The translations under genes and the position numbers were made by a program. From positions 1 to 29,767 of the IMG/VR virus record IMGVR_UViG_3300020477_000091: DNA of 29,767 nt, one strand, 5' to 3'. Of the stretch, positions 601 to 27,279 are shown piece by piece. A model generated the notes under the pieces. It had not been told where the DNA came from, did no database searches, and saw only the letters and a list, made by a program, of their open reading frames with translations. The stretch is from a virus. Within the stretch, counting starts at the first letter, position 1; every line of letters begins with the position of its first letter.

Positions 601-3600
601 ATGGCGGGTCCGAAGTCTCGTAGCGAAGCTGAGTGGCGGAACTACGTCAGTGAGTTGGCGTATCCTTGGGGTCCTGATCAGACGTTGACCCCTGAGGCTG
701 CGGAGGAGGAGGCGCGCGCTGCTTACGACGAGCGCATGGCTTCTGCGCTGTTGCTTGACGCCCTTCGTTCCGGCGATCTGGTCAACCAGTCCGGCGTGGA
801 TCCTTCCCGTGTGGATCCCTTGATGGTCGATGGTCTTGTGGCGCAGCCGGGTTTGGATGCGGGCGAGCAGGTGCGTGCTTACGGCGACTTCTTCGTGGAT
901 CCGTTGTTGAATCTTGCGTCGTCCGCTCCTGGGTTGATGTCGAGGTCTTTGGCTCGTCGTGGTGGTGGCGAGTTGCCTCCTCTGACGCCTGACGATGAGC
1001 GTGCTGCGCTGGACGCTGCGTTGATGGGTGTTGCTGGCCCGGTGGGCAGGGTTGGAGGGAGGGCTTGGCGTTGGTTGACGCAGACGCCTGGGTTGACTCG
1101 TTCCGTGCCTGGCGGTTGGCGTACTTTTGCGGGTGGTCCTGTGCATGGGGCACCGGCGGCCCCTGTTTCGGGTCGTAGGGGCAAAGCCGAGAAGTTGCAT
1201 GACTTGGCTTCGGATCCTCGCACGCCTGCCCATGAGGCGGCAGCGGCCCGTTCCGCTTACGAGAATCTGACGGGGGAGTCTTTGTCGCCCCCTTCGGGTC
1301 GTGCGTCGATGCGGGCTGCGTACGAAGCGCGGGCTCCGAAGCCTGCCGCCCCGAAGTTCGGCGACCCTGTGGGGGACGAGTTGGCGGCGTGGAGAAGTGC
1401 GGTCTCCAAGGGCGGTCATGCGGGGCAGGCTGGTCTTTCCGCCGACGAGGCGGCCCTGGTCAGCCGGTTGCGCTCCGAGGTGTTGATGTCCCCACACCCG
1501 GAAGCCGTCAGGGCGTGGAATGAGGTTGAGTCCGGTCGCATGGCTCTCGACCCTTCGTATGTCCCCCGGAATCTTCCTGCGGAATCTCGGCCTGTTGCCG
1601 GTGCTTGGTGGTCCGACCGCCTGAAACAAGTCACGGACCCGGAGGCACGGGCCGTGGCTCAGGCGGCGGTGGACGACTTCGTCTCCGCCCTGAACGCCTA
1701 TGAACGTGCGGATGCGAGCCCTTATCGGCCCGGTGCCTTTGAAGAGTCCGTTCCGGGCGAGTTCCTCTTTGAGGATCTGCTTCCGAGGCGCGTCGACCTC
1801 GTCCAGGCAGCGGACAGACTGGACAGCCTGCTTCCCCCGGCTCGGACTCCGCAACCGGAGTCTCCTGCTGCCCGGAGAGCGGCTTTTGAACTTCTTCGCG
1901 GGGATGATTCGATCCTGGGTCCGGCAGAGGGATTGGCCCCTGCCAGAGATGAGCGCATCGCCACGAAGGAGGCGTATACGGCCGTCGATCTGGGCTACAA
2001 GCCTAGCTCGTTATCCGCCGAGTTGGCTGTGCAGAGGTGGGCTGCAAGCGACGACATGATTGAGATGGGGCGCTTTAATCAGGCAGACCTGTCCCTGATA
2101 CGTCAACTCAAGAAGAAGTTGATGAAGTACGACCCCCGAATCCGAGAGCCTGGTCCGACTGATCCTCGTTGGGGGCGAGGCGAAAGGGAACTTGGGTGGG
2201 TTTTGTCAGGGTTCAAGGCTCACAGTCTGTCTCTGCCGCTAAATTCACCACAGAGCAAGGCCGCCGACAGGTTTGGACATGCCCTGAACGCCTACGAGGA
2301 CCTTGGATCCGAAGCCTTCCTGGGGTTGGACGACGACGCTCTCCTGTCTGGAACCATCGACCTCATATCCGCAGCCAGGGTGCTTGAGAGGACGCTGGCA
2401 TCGGCCCCCTCCACCGGCCGCACGCATGCGGGAGGAGGCGCGCGCCATGGCGCCCTCGAGGCCCTGCGCGCTGCGTACGAAGCGCGGGCTCCGAAGCCTG
2501 GACGGGCTGGGGTGCGAGAGGCGCACGCCAAGGCTAGGCCGGAGTTGGTGGCAACTTCCGAGGAGATCCCACTGGGCCTCAGCAGGCCCCCCGTGCGAGA
2601 CGTGTCCCTTGAAGGGATGGCGGACGACGCCTTCGGTGAGCACTGGAAAAACATCAACAGGCACCTTTCCGGTCTTGAACGGAGGTTTGACGAGGATCTG
2701 GCGCTTGAGAGGGACCCGGCGTTCCGGCGAGAGTTGGCTGAGGCGCAAGATGAGTGGGTCGCTGCGGACATGGAGAGGTTCCGCCGAGACATTGGCCGCA
2801 TCCACCCGGAGAGTATCTTCAACCGCCTGTTGGAGCTTCGCCCAAACAGCGCCGAAGATCGCATGAAGATGCAGATTGTCGTGGAGGAGATGGCGGCCGA
2901 CCCGGATCCAAACGTTCTGCGGCAACTTGAGGCGGAGTTCGTGCGCTACGGTGAGCAGAGCGCCAGTCACGCCGAAGTGGCGAAGCGCATATTGGAGGAC
3001 ATTAAAAATGTCCGACCTGCCCCCGCCCCCGCCCCCTCCACCGGCCGCCCGGCCCTGCGCGCCGCCTACGAAGCCGGCAAGCCGGAGCCTGTAGCGCCGG
3101 AGCCACAGACGCCCACGCAGACGCCCGCGCAGACGGGGGCTATGGAGTCGGTTCCAGTTGAAGCACTAGAGTCGAACGAGTCGTTTAGGGAGTGGATTCG
3201 TTCGCAATCTCGGGGGGGCAACAAAGAAATCATCAAGAAACTACAGGGCGAGTTGAATGACATAAGGGCTTCGCAGGAGTCTGCGCCAGGGGAGGTTTTG
3301 TATCACGGGACAGGTCGTCACGTTGCCGACCAGATCGAGTCCGAGGGGTTTTCCCTGTCCACCGGGAGAAGAAGTGGCCCATTCGGAGACACAAAGGAAA
3401 TTCAGAACCAAGCGGTTTTCCTCTCTCCACAGAAAGATGTGGCCCGGTCCTATGGGCAGAACAAGTATGAACGTGATGATGTCCTTCTGACTGCAAAAGT
3501 AAACGCCCAGAAGCAACTGGACTTCACCGATCCGTCCACAATTCCGTCCGATCTGCGGAAGAAGGCTCTTGAGGTTGTGCGTGAGTATGAGGGGCCTTCC

Positions 3601-4320
3601 GTGGCAAGACTTCGACAGGAGGACATTCACTGGCTTATCGACCAGCAGGGCTTTGCTCAGGCTTTGCGAGATCGTGGATACGATTCTGTTCGATTCCTTG
3701 AATCGAGTTCGACAAGCAAGTCATTGGGGTTGGACCGGAGAGGTGAGACTGTCGCCGTCTTGGACCCTGCAATAATTTCTCTTGAGCCAAAGAACCGTGG
3801 AGGGCTGGCCTGGAGCAGAGAGCAGATAATGAAAGGCCGCTCCCCCTCCCCCCCGCCCCCCACGCGGGGTCCGTTCGATCCTACGACCACGGACATGCCT
3901 TTCATCGACAACATGCTCAAGGATCCGGGTCGTCGAGACTACTTCCGCAGGGAAAAGGGTTACGAATACCACCAGAGAACAATGACCCCGCAGGAATACC
4001 TCGACATTTCCGCCTCGGGCGGCAAAGGAACGGGTCCGGACGCAGGTGTTCATGGGGCCAAGGTGGCGGACTACGCCGCAAGGATGCGGCAAGGCGAGTC
4101 GTTCCCCACGCTGGTGCTTGACTGGTCATCGGGCAGGTTGAGCCAAGAAGGTCGCCATCGTGCGTTGGCGGCGATCGAGGCGGGGGTTGATGAGGTCCCT
4201 GTAGTCGAGGTCTTCCCTACAGACTGGCGGTTGGCGGAACTAGAGGACAAGGGTGGGCTTTCGGATGCGGCAAGGGATCGGCTTTCCCCGCCCCCCACGC
4301 AGACGCCCGACAAGGACTAG
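601..4320 (+). CDS. polyvalent protein with ART-like and ParB-like domains
   Basis: A 1239-residue multidomain protein. Residues about 897-1062 resemble the ADP-ribosyltransferase domain of phage polyvalent proteins: a LYHGTG motif at 900-905, a VFLSP...ARSYG motif from 939, a GYDSVRF segment, and a closing AVLDP strand near 1050. Residues about 1150-1215 resemble a ParB-like domain, with MTPQEYLD upstream and QEGRHRALAA at 1182-1191. Residues 1-230 and 660-810 are mostly helical and unassigned. Domains are joined by Pro/Ala linkers containing a repeated RAAYEA..PKP motif (near 237, 621 and 820). In the polyvalent family such proteins are thought to enter the host with the phage DNA and modify or protect molecules there; for this protein that is inference. 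The ATG directly follows an in-frame TGA at 598-600 and has no good ribosome binding site. The first ~700 bases favour T-ending codons, unlike the C-ending bias elsewhere. Confidence 0.85.
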   Translation: MAGPKSRSEAEWRNYVSELAYPWGPDQTLTPEAAEEEARAAYDERMASALLLDALRSGDLVNQSGVDPSRVDPLMVDGLVAQPGLDAGEQVRAYGDFFVDPLLNLASSAPGLMSRSLARRGGGELPPLTPDDERAALDAALMGVAGPVGRVGGRAWRWLTQTPGLTRSVPGGWRTFAGGPVHGAPAAPVSGRRGKAEKLHDLASDPRTPAHEAAAARSAYENLTGESLSPPSGRASMRAAYEARAPKPAAPKFGDPVGDELAAWRSAVSKGGHAGQAGLSADEAALVSRLRSEVLMSPHPEAVRAWNEVESGRMALDPSYVPRNLPAESRPVAGAWWSDRLKQVTDPEARAVAQAAVDDFVSALNAYERADASPYRPGAFEESVPGEFLFEDLLPRRVDLVQAADRLDSLLPPARTPQPESPAARRAAFELLRGDDSILGPAEGLAPARDERIATKEAYTAVDLGYKPSSLSAELAVQRWAASDDMIEMGRFNQADLSLIRQLKKKLMKYDPRIREPGPTDPRWGRGERELGWVLSGFKAHSLSLPLNSPQSKAADRFGHALNAYEDLGSEAFLGLDDDALLSGTIDLISAARVLERTLASAPSTGRTHAGGGARHGALEALRAAYEARAPKPGRAGVREAHAKARPELVATSEEIPLGLSRPPVRDVSLEGMADDAFGEHWKNINRHLSGLERRFDEDLALERDPAFRRELAEAQDEWVAADMERFRRDIGRIHPESIFNRLLELRPNSAEDRMKMQIVVEEMAADPDPNVLRQLEAEFVRYGEQSASHAEVAKRILEDIKNVRPAPAPAPSTGRPALRAAYEAGKPEPVAPEPQTPTQTPAQTGAMESVPVEALESNESFREWIRSQSRGGNKEIIKKLQGELNDIRASQESAPGEVLYHGTGRHVADQIESEGFSLSTGRRSGPFGDTKEIQNQAVFLSPQKDVARSYGQNKYERDDVLLTAKVNAQKQLDFTDPSTIPSDLRKKALEVVREYEGPSVARLRQEDIHWLIDQQGFAQALRDRGYDSVRFLESSSTSKSLGLDRRGETVAVLDPAIISLEPKNRGGLAWSREQIMKGRSPSPPPPTRGPFDPTTTDMPFIDNMLKDPGRRDYFRREKGYEYHQRTMTPQEYLDISASGGKGTGPDAGVHGAKVADYAARMRQGESFPTLVLDWSSGRLSQEGRHRALAAIEAGVDEVPVVEVFPTDWRLAELEDKGGLSDAARDRLSPPPTQTPDKD
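1315..1345 (+). repeat. 31-base linker repeat, copy 1
   Basis: Identical over 31 bases to 2470-2500. It encodes the AAYEARAPKP linker core of the polyvalent protein. A third, diverged copy (encoding RAAYEAGKPEP) lies near 3055-3092. The repeats mark boundaries between domains. Confidence 0.85.
2470..2500 (+). repeat. 31-base linker repeat, copy 2
   Basis: Perfect copy of 1315-1345, in the same reading frame and 1155 bases (385 codons) downstream. Recombination between the copies would cleanly delete or duplicate the intervening domain. Confidence 0.85.
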
Positions 4321-4793
4321 CCCAGCGGCGGATTCAGCGCAGAAGCAGGCACGAACCACGCCTCCCTTGAACGCCCCTTCGTCCGAAGCAGAGGGTCGTC
4401 CTTCCACTCGTCGCGCTGAGCGTCACGACCCCAAATCCAACCCTTGACCTCGTAGTCCCCGTCGCGACCGACCAACAGCCAATACTTGTGGCTGTCCTCC
4501 ACGTTGCCGAAGTTCAGGCACAGACGGCCCGCAGAGTACGTCGTCTGCTTCACCTGATGGTTCGGAGCCACGTCGGCGCCACGAAACTCGCCCTTCCCGG
4601 CGTAGTAGACGCCAAGGAACTTCGCCAACGCCATCTCCGCCATGACCCCCTCTATCTCCGCGTGCCAAGCGTGCTGGGGGTCGAAGCCGTGGGCGTCGGT
4701 GCGGCTGTGAATTCGCACGTTCTCAAGGCGTCTTCGGGTGGCGATGAGAGCAGCTTGGGCGCACTCGATCCCTGTCAGTCGTACCTGCGTCAT
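4317..4793 (-). CDS. PD-(D/E)XK nuclease-like phage protein
   Basis: 158 residues, last gene of the minus-strand cassette. The order of conserved elements matches small phage proteins with a restriction-endonuclease-like fold: a helix with two Glu (HAEIEGVMAEMALAKFLG), then GADV, then HQVKQT, then a WLLVG strand, a KGWIWG turn and a C-terminal AWFVPASAL. Asp of GADV and Lys of QVK would be catalytic. The usual Glu before that Lys is Gln, so activity is uncertain. The start is the ATG at 4791-4793: it overlaps the upstream stop (ATGA) and has GGAG 10 bases upstream. A TTG at 4820 would add nine residues but sits inside the upstream gene. The stop meets the polyvalent gene's stop inside one shared CTAG (4317-4320), so the two genes converge with no gap. 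A real gene is near certain; the nuclease assignment is from motif pattern only. Confidence 0.75.
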   Translation of the reverse strand: MTQVRLTGIECAQAALIATRRRLENVRIHSRTDAHGFDPQHAWHAEIEGVMAEMALAKFLGVYYAGKGEFRGADVAPNHQVKQTTYSAGRLCLNFGNVEDSHKYWLLVGRDGDYEVKGWIWGRDAQRDEWKDDPLLRTKGRSREAWFVPASALNPPLG

Positions 4794-4921
4794 TCCAACG
4801 GTTCTCCGTAGCCAGGACAACCGTCATCGGGGCAAGACTCCGCCTCGCTGTCCTTCGGGCCACGCCAACGACAGTCGCACTCAAAGCAGATGTACCACTG
4901 CTCGTCTGCGTCGAAACTCAT
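4790..4921 (-). CDS. 43-residue zinc-ribbon-like micro-protein
   Basis: A tiny gene filling the only gap in the cassette. It has cysteines in the pattern WYICFECDCRW and CPDDGC, separated by an acidic stretch, which would suit one bound zinc. Its ATG (4919-4921) overlaps the stop of the upstream gene as ATGA, and its own TGA (4790-4792) overlaps the ATG of the nuclease-like gene as ATGA. That perfect fit on both sides is the best evidence it is real. It is very acidic overall (many Asp and Glu). The function is unknown; small zinc proteins of this kind are common in phage early regions and may bind nucleic acid or a host protein. Confidence 0.7.
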   Translation of the reverse strand: MSFDADEQWYICFECDCRWRGPKDSEAESCPDDGCPGYGEPLE

Positions 4922-5100: not shown

Positions 5101-5447
5101 TTCGCCCTCCAGCGGTTGCTACGCGCGCTCATCCGCTCCTCGGCCAACCCAGCCGCTTCAAGTTCCTGGCAGGCGGTGAGGGCTCTGTGTTCGTTGGCGG
5201 GGATTGTCCCGTCCCCCCATGTACCCTTGACCGTCTTGTTGCGCTTGTCGCCCCCCGGGGTGGGTCTCCACCATCCGCACCTTTGGGCGATCCCTTTGAT
5301 GGTTCGCCCCCCCTTGGCTGATCGAAGGAGGTCGAGGACGGTTCTCGCATCCTCGGACAGTCCATCGCCCCAAAGACGGTCCCAGCCGTCTCGGTAACGG
5401 TCTGTCGCCGCCTTGGACGAAAACGAATCCTCCAAGAACTTGGTCAC
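5097..5447 (-). CDS. winged-helix-like DNA-binding protein, hypothetical
   Basis: 116 residues from a GTG at 5445-5447. I chose this start because the GTG overlaps the upstream gene's TGA as GTGA, matching the ATGA junctions of the rest of the cassette. An ATG at 5486 would add 13 residues but would overlap the regulator by 43 bases and has no ribosome binding site. DARTVLDLLRSAKGG followed by TIKGIAQRCGW looks like a helix-turn-helix core. The C-terminal ALTACQELEAAGLAEE followed by a basic NRWRAK end looks like the recognition helix and wing of a winged-helix domain. It is probably a DNA-binding or transcription-modulating protein co-expressed with the ribbon-helix-helix gene. The target is unknown. 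Confidence 0.7.
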   Translation of the reverse strand: MTKFLEDSFSSKAATDRYRDGWDRLWGDGLSEDARTVLDLLRSAKGGRTIKGIAQRCGWWRPTPGGDKRNKTVKGTWGDGTIPANEHRALTACQELEAAGLAEERMSARSNRWRAK

Positions 5448-5626
5448 AGCAGAGACAGCCGATCTTCTCTGACGTTGCGCTCGCATGCAGGCAACGACAG
5501 TTTGATCATGCGCCGCACCAGTTGGCTGATCGGGATGTCGGAGTCCTCCGAAAGCGTCTTCAGCCGCCCGTGCATATCGTCGTTGACCCGCACGTAGAGG
5601 ACACTGTCTTTCGTTTGTCTTGGCAT
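5444..5626 (-). CDS. ribbon-helix-helix (Arc/CopG-type) regulator
   Basis: 60 residues. The N-terminal SVLYVRVNDDMHGRLKTL is the strand plus first helix of a ribbon-helix-helix fold, and DIPISQLVRRMIKLSL is the second helix. The length is typical for the Arc/CopG class, which binds DNA as dimers on short inverted repeats. It is the first gene of the cassette and lies just downstream of an inverted repeat (5648-5663) covering its candidate -35 box, so it probably represses its own operon. No ribosome binding site precedes the ATG, and the candidate -10 lies only 7 bases away, so the mRNA may be leaderless. The frame extends upstream to 5896, but that part is antisense to the next plus-strand gene and is not protein-like. 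A CopG-type antitoxin role is possible, but no toxin is recognisable beside it. Confidence 0.85.
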   Translation of the reverse strand: MPRQTKDSVLYVRVNDDMHGRLKTLSEDSDIPISQLVRRMIKLSLPACERNVREDRLSLL

Positions 5627-5633
5627 GTGGTGC

Positions 5634-5662
5634 AACGTATTGCGGAACTTGACTAGCGTCAA
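5634..5662 (-). promoter_or_regulatory. candidate minus-strand promoter for the cassette
   Basis: On the minus strand, TTGACG (5657-5662) and TACGTT (5634-5639) are separated by 17 bases. The -35 is 5 of 6 to the sigma70 consensus; the -10 is only 3 of 6. Transcription would start at or next to the regulator's ATG. Confidence 0.45.
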
Positions 5663-5663
5663 G
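5648..5663. promoter_or_regulatory. inverted-repeat operator candidate
   Basis: CTTGAC, four bases (TAGC), GTCAAG: a perfect 6-bp inverted repeat. It covers the minus-strand -35 box and lies in the divergent region between the regulator and the plus-strand late genes. Its size and symmetry suit a ribbon-helix-helix dimer site. Because TTGAC occurs on both strands, it could also affect a plus-strand promoter. Confidence 0.5.
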
Positions 5664-5752
5664 GTGTTCGTTCCAAATCTCACCAACCGGAGGTCGAGTA
5701 TCCCGCGCATGCGGGGGTCAACTGTGAGGACCGATCCGAAAAGGAAAAACCG

Positions 5753-6442
5753 ATGATCAAGAACCGCAACATCGCCGCTGACGCCAACATCGACCTGTCG
5801 AAGATCAACCTCACCGGAGGCGAGCGCGCCTTCTGGGAGGACTTTGACGAGACGGGCACGACCAACATCGATGCCCTCTACGGTCTCGATGCTCACCTGT
5901 CCGGCGGCACGGCCCAGGTCAGTAACGCTGTCAACAGTTGCGGGGCTCTAGTCACTACCGGTGGGTCTAACTGGAAGTCCATGATCTTCGGCGGCGGTCG
6001 GTGGAGTGCAGCGAAAAACTGCAAACTCGTCGTCCGCCTCAACTCCCTGACCGTTGCGACCTCGATGTTCCTTCTCGCCGGATGGACCGACGATGCAGGG
6101 GTTGGCGATGTCGATGCGCCTGTCACGGGCACGCCCGACATGGCTGCCTTCATGTACTCATCCGTCGACTCTGCCAACTGGCGGTTCCGGTCCAGCACGG
6201 GGGCAGCGAACACCGACACCCAGCTTGGAACGTCCGTTTCCACCGGCGTCACCACGTTGACCGTCGAGTTGAACTCGGCCGGCGGCATCATTGCGAAGAT
6301 CAACGACACGAAGGTCGGTGAGTCGATCGGGTCCGTGACCACTGGCAAGACGGACTGGCACCCCTTCGTTCGACTGCTCGGCGGGGCCGCCAGCAACATC
6401 GTCAACATCGACTCGATCTCGATCTCCGAGAGCCGCACCTGA
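5753..6442 (+). CDS. beta-sandwich (concanavalin/LamG-like) virion surface protein candidate
   Basis: 229 residues, first plus-strand gene after the inverted cassette. AAGGA at 5741-5745, 7 bases before the ATG, is a good ribosome binding site. The protein is rich in Gly, Thr, Ser, Val and Asn with alternating beta-strands. It follows a layout common in lectin-like jelly rolls: an EDFDE opening, strand-rich middle with FLLAGW, a WRFRSS strand, then LTVELNSAGGIIAKINDTKV, and a closing NIVNIDSISISES strand. Such folds decorate capsids or form receptor-binding tips. The protein at 25917-26630 shares the same arrangement, so the two may be distant paralogues. Role in the virion is inferred from fold type and from its place ahead of the terminase. 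Confidence 0.65.
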   Translation: MIKNRNIAADANIDLSKINLTGGERAFWEDFDETGTTNIDALYGLDAHLSGGTAQVSNAVNSCGALVTTGGSNWKSMIFGGGRWSAAKNCKLVVRLNSLTVATSMFLLAGWTDDAGVGDVDAPVTGTPDMAAFMYSSVDSANWRFRSSTGAANTDTQLGTSVSTGVTTLTVELNSAGGIIAKINDTKVGESIGSVTTGKTDWHPFVRLLGGAASNIVNIDSISISESRT

Positions 6443-6576: not shown

Positions 6577-6815
6577 GCATCCCGCGCGACTGCATGGACC
6601 GACCTGCCGGCAAGAGAAACAGGTTCTCGGTTGGCGACCCCGTGAAGACGCGTGCCGATCATGTGTCCGGAGACCCGGTTTCTCCCCTGGCCGACGCCGA
6701 ACAGCGCAGCAGGTTCGCCACGGGGCAGGCTCGCTACCGAAAGGAGTGGAGTCTGACCAAGGAGAGGACCCGCAATGTGCGGATCAAGCCCGGGGAGCTT
6801 CGGAGGCCGCGCTGA
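6573..6815 (+). CDS. 80-residue hypothetical protein upstream of the terminase
   Basis: It starts in an ATGA overlap with the Lys-rich peptide and ends at 6813-6815. The sequence is basic and hydrophilic, with many Arg and Asp and no membrane segment. It holds the position where the small terminase subunit is usually found, but at 80 residues it is short for that family and shows no recognisable helix-turn-helix or oligomerisation helix. The overlap with the terminase is 70 bases if the terminase uses the GTG at 6746, but only 4 bases (CTGA) if it uses a CTG at 6812. Confidence 0.6.
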   Translation: MSIPRDCMDRPAGKRNRFSVGDPVKTRADHVSGDPVSPLADAEQRSRFATGQARYRKEWSLTKERTRNVRIKPGELRRPR

Positions 6816-8866
6816 CGACGACGCCCGACCTCTCGTCCTTCCGGCCTCCGTGGTATGTCGGTCGAAGTGCCGAGGAGTTGTGGAGAAAGTGGGCTCTTTT
6901 CAGAGCGCTCGCCCCGGAAGACCCGGCAAAGGCGCATCCCTGGAGCACGGCAAAGCAACGCGAAGCCCTGCTCGACGTACTGCGCCTGATTCAGCGCAAT
7001 CCCGCCTTCTTGCTCCATGAGTTCATGGATATCCGCACCAAGGAAGGTGGGCGGCGGCGCTTCGACAACTGGACGCCGGCCCAACGCCGCTTCTACGTGG
7101 AAAGCCTGCGGCAGTACGCCTCCGGACAGCCCGTCAGGACGGTCATTCTAAAGGCAAGGCAGATGGGCATCTCGACCCTCTGCGAAGGGATGCTTTTCTG
7201 GCGCACCGCCTTCTTCAGAGACGCCACCAGCATCATCGTTGCCCACGAAGAAGAAGCCGTCAACAACATCTACGGCATGTTCCGGTTGTACTTTGAGTCC
7301 CTGCCGGACCTGATAAAGCCGCTTGTGGACAAGTTCAACCAAAGCGAGATCGTCTTCGACCAGCCGAAGGTGAAGTTGAGGAAGTCCGACCCAGGCATGG
7401 GTAGCCGCCTCATTGTGAAGACCGCCGCACTTGGCGGTTCCTCCAAGGCGAACGCAGGAAAGGGTCGTTCTGCGACCTATCACGCCGCACACTGCTCCGA
7501 GGCGGCGTTTTGGGCGGAGCCTGCGACCTTCTGGGGAGGTCTTTCGCAGGGCATTCCGGACGCCCGCAACACCTGGGTCTTCGTGGAGTCCACCGCGAAC
7601 GGCGTCGGCAACTGGTTTCACGACTTTTGGCGACGGGCTGCGGACGGGTGGGATATGCGCCCCGACGACAAAGGGCGGCCCGTGTGGCAACTGGTCGACC
7701 CTTCCGCCAGCCGCTCCGCCTACCTCCCCGTCTTCCTGTCCTGGCTGGAGCACCCCGGCTATCAGGTGCGTCCGGAGGGGATGCCGATCGACGTGTCCAC
7801 GAACAAGGGCATTGCCCGTTACGTCAAGGACTACGACGAGGACGAACGCAAGCTGTCCGACCGCTTCGGGGCCACGCCCTACCAGATCGAGTGGAGAAGG
7901 CGCACAATAGCCGACAAGTGCGACGGCGACCTACATATGTTCCATCAGGAGTACCCTGTGCTCCCCGAGGAGGCGTTCGTCTCTTCCGGACGCAAGGTCT
8001 TCGATGTCGGGGCTATGAAGGACTATGAGCGCGCCGCCTGGGACAGGTCGAGAAGCACGGTGGCCCAGCGAGTCTCTTTCGATGTCGATGCATCCAGGGT
8101 CGACAGCCAGGACCGGGCGATGTGGACGCTGAAGAACGACCCGGACGGCCCCGTTCAGGTCTGGGCTCTTCCGCAGCCGGGTCGAAAGTACGTCATCGGA
8201 GCAGACTCCTGCTACGGGAAACCTAACGGAGACTACGCCTGCGGGCAGGTTGTGGACTTGACGAGTTGGGAGCAAGTGGCCTGTCTGCATGGCCGTCTTC
8301 CACCCGAAGATTTCGCTGAACTTTTGCATGCGCTTGCGGGGTGGTACAACGACGCACTTGTCGTACCTGAAATCAACGGCCCCGGGATCAGCGTCTTGAA
8401 CAGGCTTCAGGCGCTAGGACAGTGGAATATGTACCGTCGCATCGAGTTCGATGGAGTCAAGCGCAAGCCGAAGCCCTCCTGGGGTTGGACGATGAGCGCC
8501 AAGGCTCGGTCGAGGATGGTGGACGAGTTGAAGTCCGCAGTCAGAAACCGCAGGCTTGTCTTGAACGACCCGGACACCATTCGGGAGATGCGTGAGTGGA
8601 TTGTTGTTTCCAACCCGCGCACCGGAAAGGCAAAGGAGATGCCCTCGGGCGGACCCTACGCCTACGACGACCGTATCACCGCTCTCGGCATTGCGCTGGT
8701 GGGTGGTGTTCTGGACAAGGGCATGGGAGGTGCGCTTGTCAGCAAGACCGTGGCCGATTCCGAAGGAACGGCCGAGACCAGGCGACTCGGGTTCATCGAT
8801 CCCGAAGCGTTGAACATGTCGTCTTCGGAAGAAGCGATGCACCCCGTGTTGGGAACCTGTTTCTAG
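6746..8866 (+). CDS. terL: terminase large subunit
   Basis: The packaging motor: an ATPase that pumps DNA through the portal and a nuclease that cuts the concatemer. Numbered from the GTG at 6746, the Walker A-type motif KARQMGIST is at 136-144. The Walker B-type segment YHAAHCSEAAFW has the catalytic Glu at about 252. The RNase H-like nuclease domain has Asp 487 (VIGADSCYG), Glu 542 (VPEING) and Asp 641/642 (YAYDDRITALG). All key residues are present. 706 residues is long for the family (about 450-600). The GTG at 6746 has AAGGA abutting it with no spacer, so it is a poor start. A CTG at 6812 has GGAG six bases upstream and overlaps the preceding stop by 4 bases, giving 684 residues. The family assignment is firm; the start is not. 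Confidence 0.95.
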   Translation: MESDQGEDPQCADQARGASEAALTTTPDLSSFRPPWYVGRSAEELWRKWALFRALAPEDPAKAHPWSTAKQREALLDVLRLIQRNPAFLLHEFMDIRTKEGGRRRFDNWTPAQRRFYVESLRQYASGQPVRTVILKARQMGISTLCEGMLFWRTAFFRDATSIIVAHEEEAVNNIYGMFRLYFESLPDLIKPLVDKFNQSEIVFDQPKVKLRKSDPGMGSRLIVKTAALGGSSKANAGKGRSATYHAAHCSEAAFWAEPATFWGGLSQGIPDARNTWVFVESTANGVGNWFHDFWRRAADGWDMRPDDKGRPVWQLVDPSASRSAYLPVFLSWLEHPGYQVRPEGMPIDVSTNKGIARYVKDYDEDERKLSDRFGATPYQIEWRRRTIADKCDGDLHMFHQEYPVLPEEAFVSSGRKVFDVGAMKDYERAAWDRSRSTVAQRVSFDVDASRVDSQDRAMWTLKNDPDGPVQVWALPQPGRKYVIGADSCYGKPNGDYACGQVVDLTSWEQVACLHGRLPPEDFAELLHALAGWYNDALVVPEINGPGISVLNRLQALGQWNMYRRIEFDGVKRKPKPSWGWTMSAKARSRMVDELKSAVRNRRLVLNDPDTIREMREWIVVSNPRTGKAKEMPSGGPYAYDDRITALGIALVGGVLDKGMGGALVSKTVADSEGTAETRRLGFIDPEALNMSSSEEAMHPVLGTCF

Positions 8867-9044: not shown

Positions 9045-9445
9045 TGGACGCCGGCGCTCCCGTCGCTGCTTGGCTGTCTCTTTCGGCAGCCGTGCTGTTT
9101 CAAGGTTTCATCCTCGCCTGGCTTGTGGTGCGGGCGCAGGGTGAGGCCGGCCGGGAGCGTCGGCAGACTCATGAGTTCATGCTCGGAGCCCTGGACAGGG
9201 TGAGGGGTGAGGCGGTGCGCGATGTGCTCTCTGCCGAAACCCACCGGGAAATGGCTCGTCTTGAGTTGTTGTCCAACGAGGCCGCCGCCATGTCCATGGA
9301 GGAAAAGGTCGCAGAGCAGATTAGGTTGGGGTTTGTCGGCGACGACGCCCTGGCGCGTGTTCTGATGTCCGACTCCGGCATGGACCCCGACGATCCCGAT
9401 CAGGTCGATCAGTGGAACGCCATTCACCTGGGATCCCCTAACTGA
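9044..9445 (+). CDS. 133-residue protein with an N-terminal membrane segment
   Basis: GTG start sharing one base with the preceding TAG; the TGA overlaps the portal ATG (TGATG). Residues about 7-28 (VAAWLSLSAAVLFQGFILAW) form one membrane-spanning helix. An amphipathic helical region with many Arg and Glu follows, including MSMEEKVAEQIRLGF, and the C-terminus is acidic (DPDDPDQVDQ). Its place between terminase and portal suggests a head or packaging accessory, but a membrane anchor there is unusual. No family recognised. Confidence 0.7.
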   Translation: MDAGAPVAAWLSLSAAVLFQGFILAWLVVRAQGEAGRERRQTHEFMLGALDRVRGEAVRDVLSAETHREMARLELLSNEAAAMSMEEKVAEQIRLGFVGDDALARVLMSDSGMDPDDPDQVDQWNAIHLGSPN

Positions 9446-11565
9446 TGCCGAAAAACGTCTACAAGATGCCCTTCAAGGGCGCTGCCTTGGACGACACGGC
9501 TAGGGATGTGCTCGGCGTGGTCAACGAGACCAAGTCGATCCTTCAGAGTTTCCAGTGGGCCTGGTGGGAGGCTGTCGCCTTCTTCCGGGGTGACCAGTGG
9601 ACCGCTTGGGATCACACGGCGGGGCGGCTCCGGCAGCGTCCTGTCGTTCCTTGGCGTATCCGGGTGGTGGACAATCAGGTGCTTCCGCAGATCATGCGGC
9701 AGCAGGCGATGCTGATCGAGCGGCGTCCCGTTTTCTCGGCGATGCCCAGGACGGACAACGAGGACGACGTCCTTGCCGCTTTGGGTTTCGATGCACTGAT
9801 GATGTGGCATTGGGATCGTCTGAACTGCACGGACAAGCTGTCAGAGGCTTTGCTGTGGGCCTTGATCTGCGGAACGGGGTTCTGGCGGGTCGATTGGGAC
9901 GCCACGGCGGGGGACGGGGTGCTGATCCCCAAGGGCGTGGGCTCCGATATGGCCGGTGCCCCGGATGCCCCGACCCTGGAGGAAGGTCTGGAGCAGGAGG
10001 CGGAGGACGAGGACGAGTTCTTCGTCCCCGGACTTCCCGAGGAACCGGAAGAAGTCGAGGTGAGGACCGGCGACGTCCAGATCCGGGTCGTCTCGCCCTT
10101 CCAGATGTTCGTGGACCCTTCGGCCTCTCGGCTGGACGACGCCCGGTGGGTGGCGCAGGAGTCCTTCGTGCATGTGGACCTGCTGCGCGATCGCATGGGT
10201 TCTGCGGCGAAGGACATAGCGCCGGACGTGACGGCCTCGGAGTATTACAACTACGAGCAGTCGCTTCGTTTCGACCGCGGCACCAGCAGTATGCTGTCCG
10301 AGGACACCCGGGATCAGGTCAGGGTGATCGAGTATTGGGAGCGCCCCAGCAAGAAGCACCCAAGCGGCCGGGTCGTGACCATCGCCAATGAGCGGACGCT
10401 GGACGAGCGGGACAACCCCTATGGTGGGAGCTTCCCCTATGTCGCTTTCCGGGGGATCAAGGTTCCCGGTCGTTTCTGGGGCGATGGCTACGTAAAGCAT
10501 CTGCGCCCCTTGCAGACGATGCACAACCGTGCGGTCAGCCGTTACCACGAGATCATGAACCTCATGGGCAATCCCAAGTGGGTCGTGGACAAGGGCAGCG
10601 GGATCAAGGAGACCTCGATCAACGACCGTCCCGGGGAGGTCATTACCAAGACTCCAGGGATGGAGGTCGTGGCGGTTTCGCCTCCGCCGGCTCCCACGAT
10701 TCACCCCAACGTGATGTCGCTTGCGCTGAACGGGATGCAGACGATCAGCGGCATCAACGACCCGCTGGTTGGCCAAAACCCTCCGAATGTCCGAAGCGCC
10801 TCCGCCCTGTATGGGCTTCAGGAGGCTGCGATGCGTTCTTTCGTGCCTTTGGCGCTGAACACGGAGTCTTCCTTGCGGGATTCCGGTCGCCTGGTTCTGA
10901 ATCTGATCAAGCGGTTCTATACCGAGGATCGTGCATTCCGGGTGTTGGGAGACGCCGGGCGTGCGGAGGTCCACTATCTGAAGGCTGCGGACGTGGAACG
11001 CGTGGCGGATGTCACGGTCGTCCATGGCTCGATGTTCCCGAAATCAAAGGCGGCGCAGCAGGACCGCGCACTGCAACTGCTGCAAGTCGCCCCCATGTTG
11101 TTCATGAAGGAGGACGGCTCCTTCGACACCGATCGGCTCATGTCCATGTTGGAGATGCCGGCCGTGGATCAACGTCTGTCTTCGGCCCGTCAGGACCGGG
11201 CGCAGGCGTTCGCAGAGCATGTGGATGTGGAGGAAGGGCGGCCGTTGGTGGCGCAGCCCTGGGAGGACCACCAACTCCACATGCGTCTGCACATCGCCCG
11301 GTTGCAAAACCGGACATGGACTGAAGAGCACCCCGAAGCCGCCCAGGCTCTCGCCGCCCACCTTGCGGATCATGAGAACCTGTTGCAGCAGAAGGCGGCG
11401 CAGGCCGCCGGCGGGATGCCCCAGGTTCCAACGGAAGGGATGGGTCCCCCATCCGGGCCTATGGGGGGAGGCGGTCCAACCCGACCTCCCGCGGGCGGAC
11501 AGCCGTCTCCCGGTGGCCCAGGTGGTGAATCCTTTGCTCCCTCTCCGTTCGGAGGTGGAGGCTGA
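9445..11565 (+). CDS. portal protein, P22-like
   Basis: Forms the dodecameric ring at the capsid vertex through which DNA enters and leaves. The 706-residue length is close to P22 gp1 (about 725). Features match that class: an N-terminal helical region with WWEAVAFFRGDQW; DNQVLPQIMRQQAMLIERRPVF; CGTGFWRVDWD; a FQMFVDPSA segment; EYWERP; FPYVAFRG; and a long helical stem-like part with NRAVSRYHEIMNLMGNPKWVV. An acidic insertion lies at about 178-208. The last ~50 residues are Gly/Pro/Gln-rich and probably disordered. It lies directly after terminase and before the scaffold-like and capsid genes, the canonical order. Start is the ATG coupled to the upstream stop. Confidence 0.92.
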   Translation: MPKNVYKMPFKGAALDDTARDVLGVVNETKSILQSFQWAWWEAVAFFRGDQWTAWDHTAGRLRQRPVVPWRIRVVDNQVLPQIMRQQAMLIERRPVFSAMPRTDNEDDVLAALGFDALMMWHWDRLNCTDKLSEALLWALICGTGFWRVDWDATAGDGVLIPKGVGSDMAGAPDAPTLEEGLEQEAEDEDEFFVPGLPEEPEEVEVRTGDVQIRVVSPFQMFVDPSASRLDDARWVAQESFVHVDLLRDRMGSAAKDIAPDVTASEYYNYEQSLRFDRGTSSMLSEDTRDQVRVIEYWERPSKKHPSGRVVTIANERTLDERDNPYGGSFPYVAFRGIKVPGRFWGDGYVKHLRPLQTMHNRAVSRYHEIMNLMGNPKWVVDKGSGIKETSINDRPGEVITKTPGMEVVAVSPPPAPTIHPNVMSLALNGMQTISGINDPLVGQNPPNVRSASALYGLQEAAMRSFVPLALNTESSLRDSGRLVLNLIKRFYTEDRAFRVLGDAGRAEVHYLKAADVERVADVTVVHGSMFPKSKAAQQDRALQLLQVAPMLFMKEDGSFDTDRLMSMLEMPAVDQRLSSARQDRAQAFAEHVDVEEGRPLVAQPWEDHQLHMRLHIARLQNRTWTEEHPEAAQALAAHLADHENLLQQKAAQAAGGMPQVPTEGMGPPSGPMGGGGPTRPPAGGQPSPGGPGGESFAPSPFGGGG

Positions 11566-12417: not shown

Positions 12418-13776
12418 ATGGCTCTTCAGACCCACTCTGCCGCTGCCGCGTTGCTCAAGCGCAAGTACGGCCCCGGCATTCAAGATCAACTCCAAAACGA
12501 AACCATCGCCCTCGGCATGCTCCAGCGGATCGGCAAGGAGAAGTGGGGAGGCAGCGCCTTCTTCCACTCCCTCCGCACCGGTCGCAACCGCTCGATGCGT
12601 CCTGGCGGGGAAAGCACGGCTTTGCCCACGGCGCAACGGCAGGCGTACACCAACGCCCAGATCGGCTGTCGCATCTACCACGGCGTCGGCGGATTCACGG
12701 AGTTCGGCGCTGCGGCGACGCAGGGTTCGGACGCCGCCTTCGGCGAGATGGTCAAGACCGAGGTCAACGGCCTGATCGCCGACGCCCGGAAGGACTTGAA
12801 CATCGACGTGTACGGCACGCCCCTTGGCGTTCTGGCGCGCATCAACGGCGCGCACGGCGAAGTTGCTACGGTCAACCTGCACCAGGCGCAGGCGCTCGAC
12901 CCGTTCAACACCTACGGCAACCGCTACCTCAGCCCCAACATGCTGATCGACATCGTGGATCAGCAGAACGGCACGGTTCACAGTTCCGGCCTCACGGTGG
13001 CGTCGGTGGCTTCCGCCAACCGCACCCAGGTGACGTTCACGGGCAACATCGCCGACCCCATCGATGACGGGGACCTGCTGGTCCGCAGCGGTACGCAGAC
13101 CACTGCCGCCGCCGCCGCCCGTGCCTTCGATGGGTTGGAGATGCTCATTGACGACACGACCACGATGCCCACAGACCTCACGGCGATGGGCTTCGATCTC
13201 GATACGCTGGAGGGGATCTCTCGGAGCACGTTGGACGGGGACGGCAACCCCAACAACAACGAGTACTGGCGCGGGAACGTCATGGACCTCGCCGGTGCGG
13301 CGCTGTCGGAGACGCACTTGCAGAACATCGTGTACCTCTCCGAGGAGCGCGGTGGGTTGTACCCGGACGTGTTCCTGACCCACCGGTCGGTGCAGTACGC
13401 CATCCAGCAGTTGATGGTCGGCGACCGGCGCTTCGTGCCCCAGGAGTTCCCTGGTGGTTTCAAGGCGGTCTCGCTGGTCTACAACGCCGGCGACATGGAC
13501 ATCCCCGTGGTCGTTGACCGGGAGTGCCCGTACGACCGGCTGTACGCCCTGAACCTCGATTGCCTGCACATGTACGTCCTGCGTGATGTGGAGTTGATCG
13601 AGAACGACGGATCCGTGCTGCGCCAGGCTTCCAGCAACGGCGACGAGTGGGAGTTCGCCATCCGCCTGTTCGGCAACCTCGGCACCACGCAACCCAACGC
13701 CCTCGGCAAGCTCGTCCGGATCGGCGGGGCTGACGAGGCGTTCGGCATCGGTGCCGCCCGCGTGTACGACTTCTAG
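12418..13776 (+). CDS. major capsid protein, HK97 fold
   Basis: 452 residues, forming the icosahedral shell. Recognised from position after the scaffold, size, codon use (strongly C-ending) and sequence features: LQRIGKEKWGGSAFFHSLRTGRNRS at the N-terminal arm, an ATQGSDAAFGEMVKTEVNGL spine-like helix, DLNIDVYGTPLGVLARING, and a C-terminal half with DIPVVVDRECPYDRLYALNL typical of the axial domain. Residues about 180-225 (TVASVASANRTQVTFTGN) look like a strand-rich inserted segment. GAGGT lies 8 bases before the ATG. A long hairpin follows the gene, as often seen after capsid genes. Confidence 0.88.
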   Translation: MALQTHSAAAALLKRKYGPGIQDQLQNETIALGMLQRIGKEKWGGSAFFHSLRTGRNRSMRPGGESTALPTAQRQAYTNAQIGCRIYHGVGGFTEFGAAATQGSDAAFGEMVKTEVNGLIADARKDLNIDVYGTPLGVLARINGAHGEVATVNLHQAQALDPFNTYGNRYLSPNMLIDIVDQQNGTVHSSGLTVASVASANRTQVTFTGNIADPIDDGDLLVRSGTQTTAAAAARAFDGLEMLIDDTTTMPTDLTAMGFDLDTLEGISRSTLDGDGNPNNNEYWRGNVMDLAGAALSETHLQNIVYLSEERGGLYPDVFLTHRSVQYAIQQLMVGDRRFVPQEFPGGFKAVSLVYNAGDMDIPVVVDRECPYDRLYALNLDCLHMYVLRDVELIENDGSVLRQASSNGDEWEFAIRLFGNLGTTQPNALGKLVRIGGADEAFGIGAARVYDF

Positions 13777-17924: not shown

Positions 17925-18518
17925 GTGGCAAACATCGTTTGGTCACACACGTTCACGAACGGCGAGACGCTTACGCACACGTTGCTTGAGCAGATGAAGA
18001 CCGACATCACGGGTGTGGTGAACGGCGACATCGACGCAGCGAACATCGAGAACGGGTCGGTCACCACTGCGAAACTGGCCGCTCCCAACGCCGATTTCTC
18101 GGTGCTCGTCAAGCCCGTCAACTCTCCCGATGCACTGAGCGCCTGTACGACAAGTCCGATGGTGACTTCGGAGTTCGCCACGGCTGTCCCTGGCGTCGAC
18201 GCCAACCAGAACACGCTGAACACGCCTTTTCAGATCCCGGTGAACGCCACGGCAATCGGCATCTCAATCTACTGCCGGACGTCGCAGCAGGGTGCTCCGA
18301 CAACCCGCAACAACACGGCGCAGTTGTTCGTGGCAGGATCCGCCATTGGATCTCCGCTGACGTTCACATCGGGCAATATCGTGAGCAGCAGCGGAATGTC
18401 GCAGGCGATGACGACCTCGCAGACTCTTGAGATCCGGGTGGGCACGGACAGCGTGGCCACCCACGGCGTAACGGACCCGCACATCTGGGTGCATTGCAAA
18501 GCAACGCACCAGACGTAG
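17925..18518 (+). CDS. tail fibre-like protein
   Basis: 197 residues, GTG start two bases after the preceding stop. The segment NGDIDAANIENGSVTTAKLA (about residues 33-52) is characteristic of phage fibre and tail-tip proteins, where it begins a trimeric shaft. The rest is beta-rich and Thr/Ser/Asn/Gly-rich and ends with HIWVHCKATHQT, a plausible receptor-binding domain. At under 200 residues it is short for a fibre, so it may be a short tail needle or tip, or an adaptor for a longer one. Confidence 0.7.
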   Translation: MANIVWSHTFTNGETLTHTLLEQMKTDITGVVNGDIDAANIENGSVTTAKLAAPNADFSVLVKPVNSPDALSACTTSPMVTSEFATAVPGVDANQNTLNTPFQIPVNATAIGISIYCRTSQQGAPTTRNNTAQLFVAGSAIGSPLTFTSGNIVSSSGMSQAMTTSQTLEIRVGTDSVATHGVTDPHIWVHCKATHQT

Positions 18519-23800: not shown

Positions 23801-24984
23801 CTCTACATGTGCGGCTGGCGAAGGATGTGGCGGAACGAAAGATCCGCACCGTCGACGGCAGAGAGATCACCTATGCGGATGTCTACCGTGCAGCTATCCG
23901 CACAGGGATCGCGGACAAGTCGTTTGTTTCTGCGGAACTTGCCACCGACCTCCCCGAAAGCATGCAGTTTGCGAAGCAATGGGATCCGCGGGAGATGGTC
24001 GCAAAGACGGTGAAGTTCTGGTCGCAGGACAACCCTGTCTTTGGAACGCATGGGTTTCTGTTGAAGTCAACAGGAAATCTTGCGCGCTGGAATGAAAACA
24101 TACGGCGCATGGCGCTGTTTGTGGACAGGCTCAAGGCTGGGGAGGCTGTCGATGATGCAGCCAGAAGCGTCAAGTTGGCGTTGTTCGACTATAAGGATCT
24201 GACCCGGTTTGAGCGGGAAGCGGCGCGTCGAATCATGCCCTTCTACACCTTCTCTCGGAAAAACCTGCCTGCACAGATCAGGAGTATGCTCGATCAGCCT
24301 GGCAAGTATCTGGCCCTTGGCAAGGCGAAGCGGGCGGTCGAGGCCAGGGCAGACCACGAGTTCGGTCCCATCGGTGCTGTCAGGGACTACATGGATGATC
24401 TGTGGGCATGGCGTCTGCCTACGCAGACGGAACAGGGGTCGCCGGTCTTTTGGAATCTTGGTCTTTCGATGACCGACGTGAACCTGTTCGGCGTGCCTGG
24501 AAGGCCAGGCGAAGGTGGAGACCCTGAAATCTTCGACAGGGTCAGCCCCCTGTGGGACATTCTCAAGTTGAGCGCAGCGGCGCTTGGAACATACGACTAC
24601 CGCAGTCCGCTTACGGGTCGAAAGATCAAAGGCACCTATATGGAGCCGGACCCTGGCCTGAAGTGGCTACTTGACAAGGCTGGCGTCACGGACCGACTGC
24701 CGACGCCGACCGGAGGGTCCTATCCAGTCGTCCCGACCGCCGTTGTCATGGCGTATCGCAAGCTGTTTCCACACCTTGTTGCCTACGGTCGCGTCTTCGC
24801 CCAGGAGAGGGATGATCCTTACCAGGCTGAACAGATGCCCTTTCGCCGCCTTCGTGAGGCGGCTGGCATTTCCCTGATGCCCAACAATCCGTTGCGTGCC
24901 GAGACGGATGCTCTTCGCAAATTGGAGGAGGGTCCGTTAGCATCGGTTGCAAGAAATCCGCTGGGGATCATCCCTGGCGACTGA
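20875..24984 (+). CDS. giant ejection protein candidate with polyvalent-associated C-terminal region
   Basis: 1369 residues, the largest protein in the window. The N-terminus has two exact HESDPFKAFL repeats and a related ADPFAEFL at residues 2-9. The C-terminal half resembles the large helical domains of phage polyvalent/ejected proteins (LPD38-like): ARAAFYNIRNWIDDG near 903, WNENIRRMALFVDRLKAGE, LFDYKDLTRFERE near 1103, and IMPFYTFSRKNLPAQIRSML from 1120. In that family these proteins travel inside the head and enter the host. The middle has long helical stretches and Ala-rich segments but no catalytic motif I recognise. It ends the three-gene ejection module. Codon use matches its neighbours. 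The family match is motif-based and not confirmed by a profile search. Confidence 0.75.
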   Translation: MADPFAEFLAQEAADKSERRRHESDPFKAFLRNPESLAHESDPFKAFLEDEDAGIRAAEEARRIAMGEALRSDKLENVNRLIARGLWAEPMPGTVPMVEQDPEIAEAARSAARMGVPGVAQGLDTDEPSFWEKAGSLAKTGATFALPTGRSPTGLASEVQEMFRPKFTPPGEVSVRRPTALSTGMDIAETPARILVAAPAMAWSEGRPADVFEYMGKAVPLPSWQPGVAPRDNFAAYQSFVKNKVGGDPSDWKHIVGGFVFSLADPAFLVAGAGGAPKALLATHQAALIGGGLKSVGVGRRIMRGLGVVGKELDVQTASLARQITDDIHGAGSVRKARGAVRERLVDLFGEQAGKQLDALGESWGETGIRVGLPLTPRVEVVSAKTLQKGKEIGEDILGALKPGAVVDVAQDIASKIPGVPVKAPLNRERKSALDAINAVGRAFRTDLEGGFRGWDGALEFYEDSRIVRDPFEHERGVVIGQLARVARKLTSSPGGRKGVPDPFHMGLGELVDYSKKPGLAEDAERQFGQAVLNSPYRASTQRMDEGIFDLPDIEANDLEATNILRRGYANAVIRGRRLLKDTARDLGYESAADLMKQADDPLESRALSALEVEVAEDFHRYVQGAFVQNGMAEDMADQLARTAMGKAQSAIFKDTGAYSELMDSLSDRVAIMLKHNESTLDRMLQSERKIFKSFATQAAKRVREASIRSGLSKRDAASSAKDAYQKVMARAPEELENYFMHYIRDRNMIRRRVEVAPGAAGEAPGKHRTFLDVVENYEAMQNPSDDLMQSLAARTYAHIRFKEKAAVADLVFGDRRWARPVSRLRHPNTVTHHDYGKYSAKGADWGEKIHPITGEVYLVRDEVADYLDRAISMHDPGVLEKMFRTVDGFMGRWKSYATHARAAFYNIRNWIDDGVRMHMAGFNHNPVTYEEAVRIGMLRHLEEDLPVLATERALRKPRKGVWAKGRKYLDKRRDALHVRLAKDVAERKIRTVDGREITYADVYRAAIRTGIADKSFVSAELATDLPESMQFAKQWDPREMVAKTVKFWSQDNPVFGTHGFLLKSTGNLARWNENIRRMALFVDRLKAGEAVDDAARSVKLALFDYKDLTRFEREAARRIMPFYTFSRKNLPAQIRSMLDQPGKYLALGKAKRAVEARADHEFGPIGAVRDYMDDLWAWRLPTQTEQGSPVFWNLGLSMTDVNLFGVPGRPGEGGDPEIFDRVSPLWDILKLSAAALGTYDYRSPLTGRKIKGTYMEPDPGLKWLLDKAGVTDRLPTPTGGSYPVVPTAVVMAYRKLFPHLVAYGRVFAQERDDPYQAEQMPFRRLREAAGISLMPNNPLRAETDALRKLEEGPLASVARNPLGIIPGD
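20937..21017 (+). repeat. direct repeat of 30 bases, 51 bases apart
   Basis: Bases 20937-20966 and 20988-21017 are identical. They encode HESDPFKAFL twice, 17 codons apart. The perfect DNA match suggests a recent duplication or gene conversion. Confidence 0.85.
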
Positions 24985-26632: not shown

Positions 26633-26836
26633 ATGTCGGCTCCCAGTGAAATCCTGGCAGTCTTTCCCCACGCCGACGATGACGATGTCTGTGCGTACAC
26701 CGGCCAGCCGCTCGCCGGGAAGGTGACGACCTCTCTGGCTTTGAAGGTCGGTTCGTCAAACGCAACAACGGTTGTGGTCCTGCTGTCGAGTCTTTCCAAC
26801 GCCACCTTGAAGGCCGGATTGGTGGAGGAAGACTGA
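26633..26836 (+). CDS. 67-residue small protein before the endolysin
   Basis: It starts two bases after the preceding stop and overlaps the endolysin ATG (TGATG). DADDDDVCAYTGQPLAGKV is followed by beta-prone KVTTSLALKV and ATTVVVLLSSL. It has no membrane helix of holin length. Probably a minor structural or unassigned protein. Confidence 0.55.
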   Translation: MSAPSEILAVFPHADDDDVCAYTGQPLAGKVTTSLALKVGSSNATTVVVLLSSLSNATLKAGLVEED

Positions 26837-27279
26837 TGAATCTCGCCCCCAACCTGACGTGGGGGGAGATCCTTCGCGGCTCCGGATACGACACGGTTGC
26901 CGACCTCCCCGCCGACGTGCGAGATGCGGTCGAGTCCATGGCTGCGCGGATGTTCCAACCCCTGCGCGACGAGTTGGGCTTCCCGCTCACGGTGCTTGCC
27001 GGCGGTGGTGTGCGTTCACCTGACATGAACAGGCGTGTGGGCGGTGCTCGCACATCGCAGCATATGGCCGGTTGTGCCCTCGACCTGCGGGGCCCTACCG
27101 AGGCGCAGACCTTGCGTATCTACGACGTGGCGAAGGAGATGCAGGCGGATCGTCGGCTTCCTCCGGGTGGCTTGGCGCTGTATCTCCGGAAGGACGGCAG
27201 CGTCCGTTTCGTGCATGTAGACTGCCGCGGGCGTAGAGCCCGTTGGAACGGGGGGGCCCGGAGGCTGGCTCTTGCGTGA
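26836..27279 (+). CDS. peptidase M15 endolysin
   Basis: 147 residues. A zinc D-Ala-D-Ala-type peptidase that would cut peptide cross-links in the cell wall for lysis. GGGVRSPDMNRRVGG and TSQHMAGCALDL give His 76 and Asp 83 of the SxHxxGxAxD motif; HVDC supplies His 127 as the third zinc ligand. The arrangement matches the M15A branch. There is no signal peptide, so it needs a holin for release. It heads a run of small membrane-protein genes, consistent with a lysis cassette. ATG coupled to the upstream stop. Confidence 0.88.
   Translation: MNLAPNLTWGEILRGSGYDTVADLPADVRDAVESMAARMFQPLRDELGFPLTVLAGGGVRSPDMNRRVGGARTSQHMAGCALDLRGPTEAQTLRIYDVAKEMQADRRLPPGGLALYLRKDGSVRFVHVDCRGRRARWNGGARRLALA

Follow-up and report, generated by a model that had tools for sequence, protein, structure and literature searches.

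The stretch of DNA analysed here, called the window throughout, comprises 29,767 nucleotides of a virus record (IMG/VR record IMGVR_UViG_3300020477_000091, positions 1 to 29,767), and the relatives with which it is compared are contigs from metagenome assemblies. An open reading frame at 601-4320 on the plus strand begins with ATG and encodes 1239 residues with zero internal stops; the same gene is carried by contig L002, whose protein is 99.9% identical to that of the window. The genes for the terminase (6746-8866), the portal (9445-11565) and the major capsid protein (12418-13776) all lie downstream of it, and two genes on the opposite strand come right after its end. The gene and its immediate surroundings are made up as follows.

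601-4320, plus strand: gene for a polyvalent (multi-domain) protein, 1239 residues
601-1296, plus strand: N-terminal module, residues 1-232, with a conserved 32-residue stretch at residues 195-226
1309-1344, plus strand: linker 1, MRAAYEARAPKP, residues 237-248, its DNA near-identical to linker 2
1354-2445, plus strand: module A, residues 252-615, with no recognisable domain and known from the window phage alone
2464-2544, plus strand: linker 2, LRAAYEARAPKP-GRAGVREAHAKARPE, residues 622-648, an AYEA type joined to an AYAK type
2518-3104, plus strand: block with module B (about residues 640-815) and both flanking linkers, 90% identical in nucleotides in contig L004
3043-3138, plus strand: linker 3, GRPALRAAYEAGKPEPVAPEP...PTQTPAQTG, residues 815-846
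3295-3777, plus strand: predicted ADP-ribosyltransferase (ART)-fold domain, residues 899-1059 (H902, F940, E1049), from profile, AF2 model and structure matches
3845-3865, plus strand: linker 4, PPPPT, from residue 1084, between the ART and ParB modules, its 21 nt identical to the L006 and L004 linkers
3895-4284, plus strand: putative ParB/sulfiredoxin-fold domain, residues 1099-1228, QEGRHRA at residues 1182-1188, from the model and Foldseek/VIA matches
4286-4317, plus strand: terminal linker 5, PPPTQTPDKD, from residue 1230
4317-4793, minus strand: inverted gene, 158 residues, a member of phrog_18407 (function unknown)
4790-4921, minus strand: inverted, cysteine-rich ORF of 43 residues that overlaps the start of the 4317-4793 gene

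An earlier note on this DNA, made from the letters alone, had described a polyvalent protein in which an ART-like and a ParB-like domain share one 1239-residue chain adjoining inverted genes, and would have been given up had profile and structure searches matched neither domain. Both were matched, the reading frame is intact, and the two motifs on which the proposal was built, YHGT and QEGRHRA, are indeed present, at residues 901-904 and 1182-1188. Full-length protein searches (tblastn) against annotated phages gave no match, nor did PADLOC, and no relatives of the portal were found in a bacterial and archaeal genome collection, so that no host was found. Elsewhere in the window, an ORF of 150 residues at 5447-5896 (minus strand) has weak Arc-like repressor matches, a Peptidase M15-type endolysin is encoded at 26836-27279 (plus strand), and ARAGORN calls a tRNA-Arg, possibly falsely, at 24813-24889 (minus strand), antisense within an ORF of 1369 residues.

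The ART domain is the better defined of the two. Taken alone, it matches Pfam ART-PolyVal (PF18760) with E = 5.7e-4 and 21.1 bits, which is under the curated cut-off of 31.2, and the whole 1239-residue protein matches with E = 0.021 and 16 bits; two relatives exceed the cut-off, L005 at 59.7 bits and P0003 at 61.4. When 26 other phage ARTs, without the window sequence and L006, were made into a profile, it scored 23.1 bits against residues 899-1059 over its full length; 2000 shuffled versions of the domain reached 7.9 bits at most, and none of the other modules of the window protein is among the top scores of the profile. An iterated profile seeded with L005 recruited L006 and not the window ART. 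The AF2 model of residues 885-1070, made with an alignment of 28 sequences, has a pLDDT of 82.2 and a pTM of 0.77; in an AF2 run on the ART and ParB domains together with three sequences the ART had been unresolved. The leading PDB matches of this model in Foldseek and VIA are NatT, tankyrase/PARP, the diphtheria-toxin fold and ParT, and its viral structure matches include several proteins annotated as ART-PolyVal or polyvalent. PHROGs and NCBIfam matches for the region are to RNA 2'-phosphotransferase, an enzyme of the ART superfamily. By alignment, H902 is kept; the canonical Tyr position is taken by F940, as it is by Phe in several other phage ARTs, and the acidic residue is probably E1049. 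On the strength of the profile and the model, residues 899-1059 can be confidently predicted to adopt the ART fold.

The ParB-like domain is assigned with less confidence. In the AF2 model of residues 873-1239, useful confidence is reached only around residues 1099-1228 (block means of pLDDT about 41-81). The leading Foldseek matches of this part are mostly ParB-N, sulfiredoxin and Osa (best E 0.015, prob 0.99, to ParB-N), and the VIA list consists almost wholly of ParB, Noc, KorB, sulfiredoxin, Osa and a free serine kinase, with Z values of at most 6.7, within the range that the tool warns about. A Pfam search of the domain gave no match, and a check against PHROGs for the DdrB-like ParB subgroup gave weak matches to phrog_3256 (E 0.0016) and the ParB family phrog_1033 (E 0.18). 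Fold matches that are mostly to ParB/sulfiredoxin structures, together with a motif of the G-x-H-R type, point to the ParB/sulfiredoxin superfamily with moderate model confidence. In the other phages L132 and L109, a weak relative of this module sits in an ORF matched by the ART profile as well. Searched against phages, both the ART and the ParB modules gave weak matches only (E 0.06 and above), and a scan of IMG/VR for close relatives of either found L002 only. The gene thus encodes at least two distinct effector-type domains, of predicted ART and ParB/sulfiredoxin folds, in a single ORF beside late structural and packaging genes, which bears out the polyvalent label.

The remaining modules carry no such assignment. 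Searches of Pfam and PHROGs gave no significant family match for residues 1-232, 252-615 or 631-815, and module A gave no match to phages. Module B is found again in L004, and the N-terminal module in L004, L006 and L008, where the stretch at residues 195-226 is 75-78% identical. Third-base composition is distinct in the N-terminal module (A 2%, T 35%): over the first 250 codons it lies at the limit of the range of the structural genes or outside it, and it shifts after linker 1. The DNA at 300-1350, from upstream of the gene into its start, is strongly T/G-rich and A-poor, with an AT skew of -0.44 in the first kilobase, and the A-poor third positions continue in the first 250 codons.

The linkers between these modules, together with the exchange of the cassettes that they bound, were absent from the earlier note and are a more informative feature of the gene than the two named domains. 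Every internal junction of the window protein has one, and a further linker closes the chain. Their DNA is about 85-100% identical among related phages, whose terminase and portal DNA is only about 70% identical to that of the window; linker 3, for example, matches L006 over 85 nt at 95%. Where residues are identical, their codons agree in 49-50% of cases for terminase and portal, as against 88-100% for linker 3, 85% for module B and 93% for the neighbouring inverted gene, and this high agreement therefore indicates sharing at the DNA level. In the relatives, the AYAK type stands at junctions 1 and 2, the AYEA type at junction 3 and PPPPTQTP at junction 4, so each linker type looks tied to one position; the window deviates from this placement at its first two junctions. 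Five IMG/VR contigs contain a 22-nt PPPTQTP pattern, every match lying in this gene. The AYEA linker pattern has no match in 84,980 genomes, and a degenerate AYEA/AYAK pattern finds, in IMG/VR, this lineage and three off-lineage matches; L092, L093 and L095 were rejected as linker carriers, being chance matches in unrelated proteins.

Three long blocks shared between relatives have an edge at these linkers. The N-terminal module is 97.6% identical between L006 and L004 in a block that ends at the AYAK linker. The module B block shared by the window and L004 starts at the AYAK linker, ends shortly after the AYEA linker and is 90% identical, as against about 71-73% in the long terminase and portal blocks of the same pair. 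The ART block of L004 and L016 starts at the PTQT (PPPTQTP) linker and is 99.2% identical over 1017 nt, as compared with about 90% in the long block over the rest of these genomes. From the stop of the gene onward, L016 and L006 agree at 99.0% for 8.9 kb, yet their modules upstream of it show no relationship beyond two linkers, 60 and 46 nt long and 98% identical. The inverted gene at 4317-4793, whose protein is 95% identical in L006 and L016, forms one high-identity block with the end of the polyvalent gene: between the window and L006 the block is 610 nt long and 96% identical, starting at the last linker, covering the inverted gene and stopping at 4895, within the 43-residue ORF. Taken together, these sequence comparisons support the view that modules flanked by DNA-conserved linkers were exchanged recently, as seen in four distinct architectures only, all from metagenome assemblies and two from single contigs (L004 and L016), one of which is cut off and the other both cut off and frame-broken. 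Near the C-rich PPPPTQTP linker the frame of the polyvalent gene is broken in L003 and L004, and other members of the group are intact there; at 2130-2347 of L003 the gene is split into two overlapping frames, which may reflect sequencing error, decay or frameshifting. In the L003 protein, an HELGH motif of the kind usual in zinc peptidases lies in the C-terminal part (3237-4274), which has no Pfam match. Outside the polyvalent gene, an ORF of 197 residues at 17925-18518 (plus strand), of no known family, is 79-88% identical in nucleotides in the relatives, whose other structural-gene blocks are mostly lower, at about 64-77% to the window; judged by these identities, it also looks recently exchanged.

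The explanation that we consider fairly likely is that the gene encodes a polyvalent protein of separately folding modules, that its linkers make it a platform for exchange, and that its product acts on the host after being ejected with the DNA. The protein would be made late, packaged or ejected with the phage DNA, and would act on its targets in the host as infection begins: the ART would use NAD+ to modify a host or defence molecule, and the ParB-like domain would have DNA or nucleotides as its target. In a cell infected by two such phages, one module would be swapped by homologous recombination within the linkers, with frame and order kept. The enzymatic activity, the host targets and homologous recombination during co-infection as the mechanism are all predictions of this proposal. 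By analogy, the protein is probably delivered with the DNA, since the position of the gene, the biology of polyvalent proteins (PMC5512222) and an ejectosome match lead us to infer late expression, packaging and ejection. That match is to residues 1419-1605 in the solved structure of the cyanophage A4 pre-ejectosome, which align with the ART model at Z 8.1, tied with many other ARTs, and it may serve as a lead for an ART fold in an ejected virion protein.

It is possible, if unlikely, that the linkers are instead a peptide motif selected for packaging, processing or partner binding, with the DNA identity a by-product and the modules brought in by illegitimate recombination. At the peptide level the AYAK and AYEA linkers have (R/K)-x-A-Y and then a Pro-rich stretch in common, even though their DNA differs, and this suggests that the peptide is constrained. 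However, the codon agreement in linker 3 is far above that in terminase and portal while the modules on its flanks are unrelated, and the ends of the three long shared blocks fall at linkers; constraints on the peptide and on the DNA could also act together. A second alternative, which we hold to be very unlikely, is that the protein is a structural or DNA-ejection protein in which the ART and ParB-like folds are inactive remnants. The change from Tyr to Phe at the strand-2 position (F940), the uncertain acidic residue and the ART score under the Pfam cut-off would agree with such a loss; yet the His is kept, Phe is found at the same position in several other phage ARTs, and relatives carry different ARTs in the corresponding part, some of them above the Pfam cut-off, which suggests selection for the domain type. 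It is highly improbable that an assembler joined modules of co-occurring phages at short identical repeats, even though all the contigs are metagenomic and linkers of 20-60 nt are repeats able to mislead assemblers, because the window and L002 agree at 99.95%, L006 and L008 from different data sets agree at 99.9% over 7.4 kb, all junctions except one are in frame within long ORFs, and module B and the ART block keep 90-99% identity in differing contexts, a combination that argues against chimeras, less so for the single contigs L004 and L016.

The exchange-platform explanation bears on how phages gain and lose effector domains with the frame kept, which has mostly been inferred from old, blurred breakpoints. 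Here, phages that are near-identical elsewhere differ in linker-bounded cassettes; the exchange is therefore recent and its mechanism directly testable, and any sequence between two such linkers becomes a candidate phage effector. A stronger version, which appears quite unlikely, would have the linkers be dedicated recombination adaptors under selection, a position-specific and frame-keeping set for slot-by-slot exchange of effector modules. If true, phages would possess an intragenic cassette system for effectors, with linkers maintained in the population.

Polyvalent-protein mosaicism and the idea of boundary sequences are both known; their combination within one gene was not found in the literature searched, and a limited search of open-access papers gave no mention of DNA-conserved linkers at every junction of one gene. 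Polyvalent proteins have been described in phages and conjugative elements, with up to 50 domain combinations in those of Helicobacter phages (Iyer et al. 2017, PMC5512222). The window protein resembles them in having several effector-type domains, including ART and ParB/sulfiredoxin folds, in its location near late genes and in the variable architectures of its group; it differs in the near-identical DNA linkers that mark block ends at all junctions, as the text of that report contains neither 'linker' nor 'shuffl'. Domain mosaicism, in which protein fragments encoded by phage genes undergo ongoing shuffling (PMC10684548), is likewise comparable in that fragments are shuffled within phage genes, yet that text mentions neither 'linker' nor 'polyvalent', the two features that come together here. 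Exchange regions bordered by nuclease genes (Barth et al. 2023, PMC10448857) resemble the present region of raised identity, which also has a small accessory gene (4317-4793) at its edge; in contrast to those regions, no nuclease domain was found in this edge gene. Finally, short conserved boundary sequences have been proposed to account for phage genome mosaicism, and at most mosaic boundaries they cannot be found (both discussed in PMC3029335). The linkers described here would share with those sequences homologous recombination at short conserved stretches between modules but, unlike junctions between genome modules, they are intragenic, in frame, several per gene and largely position-specific in appearance.
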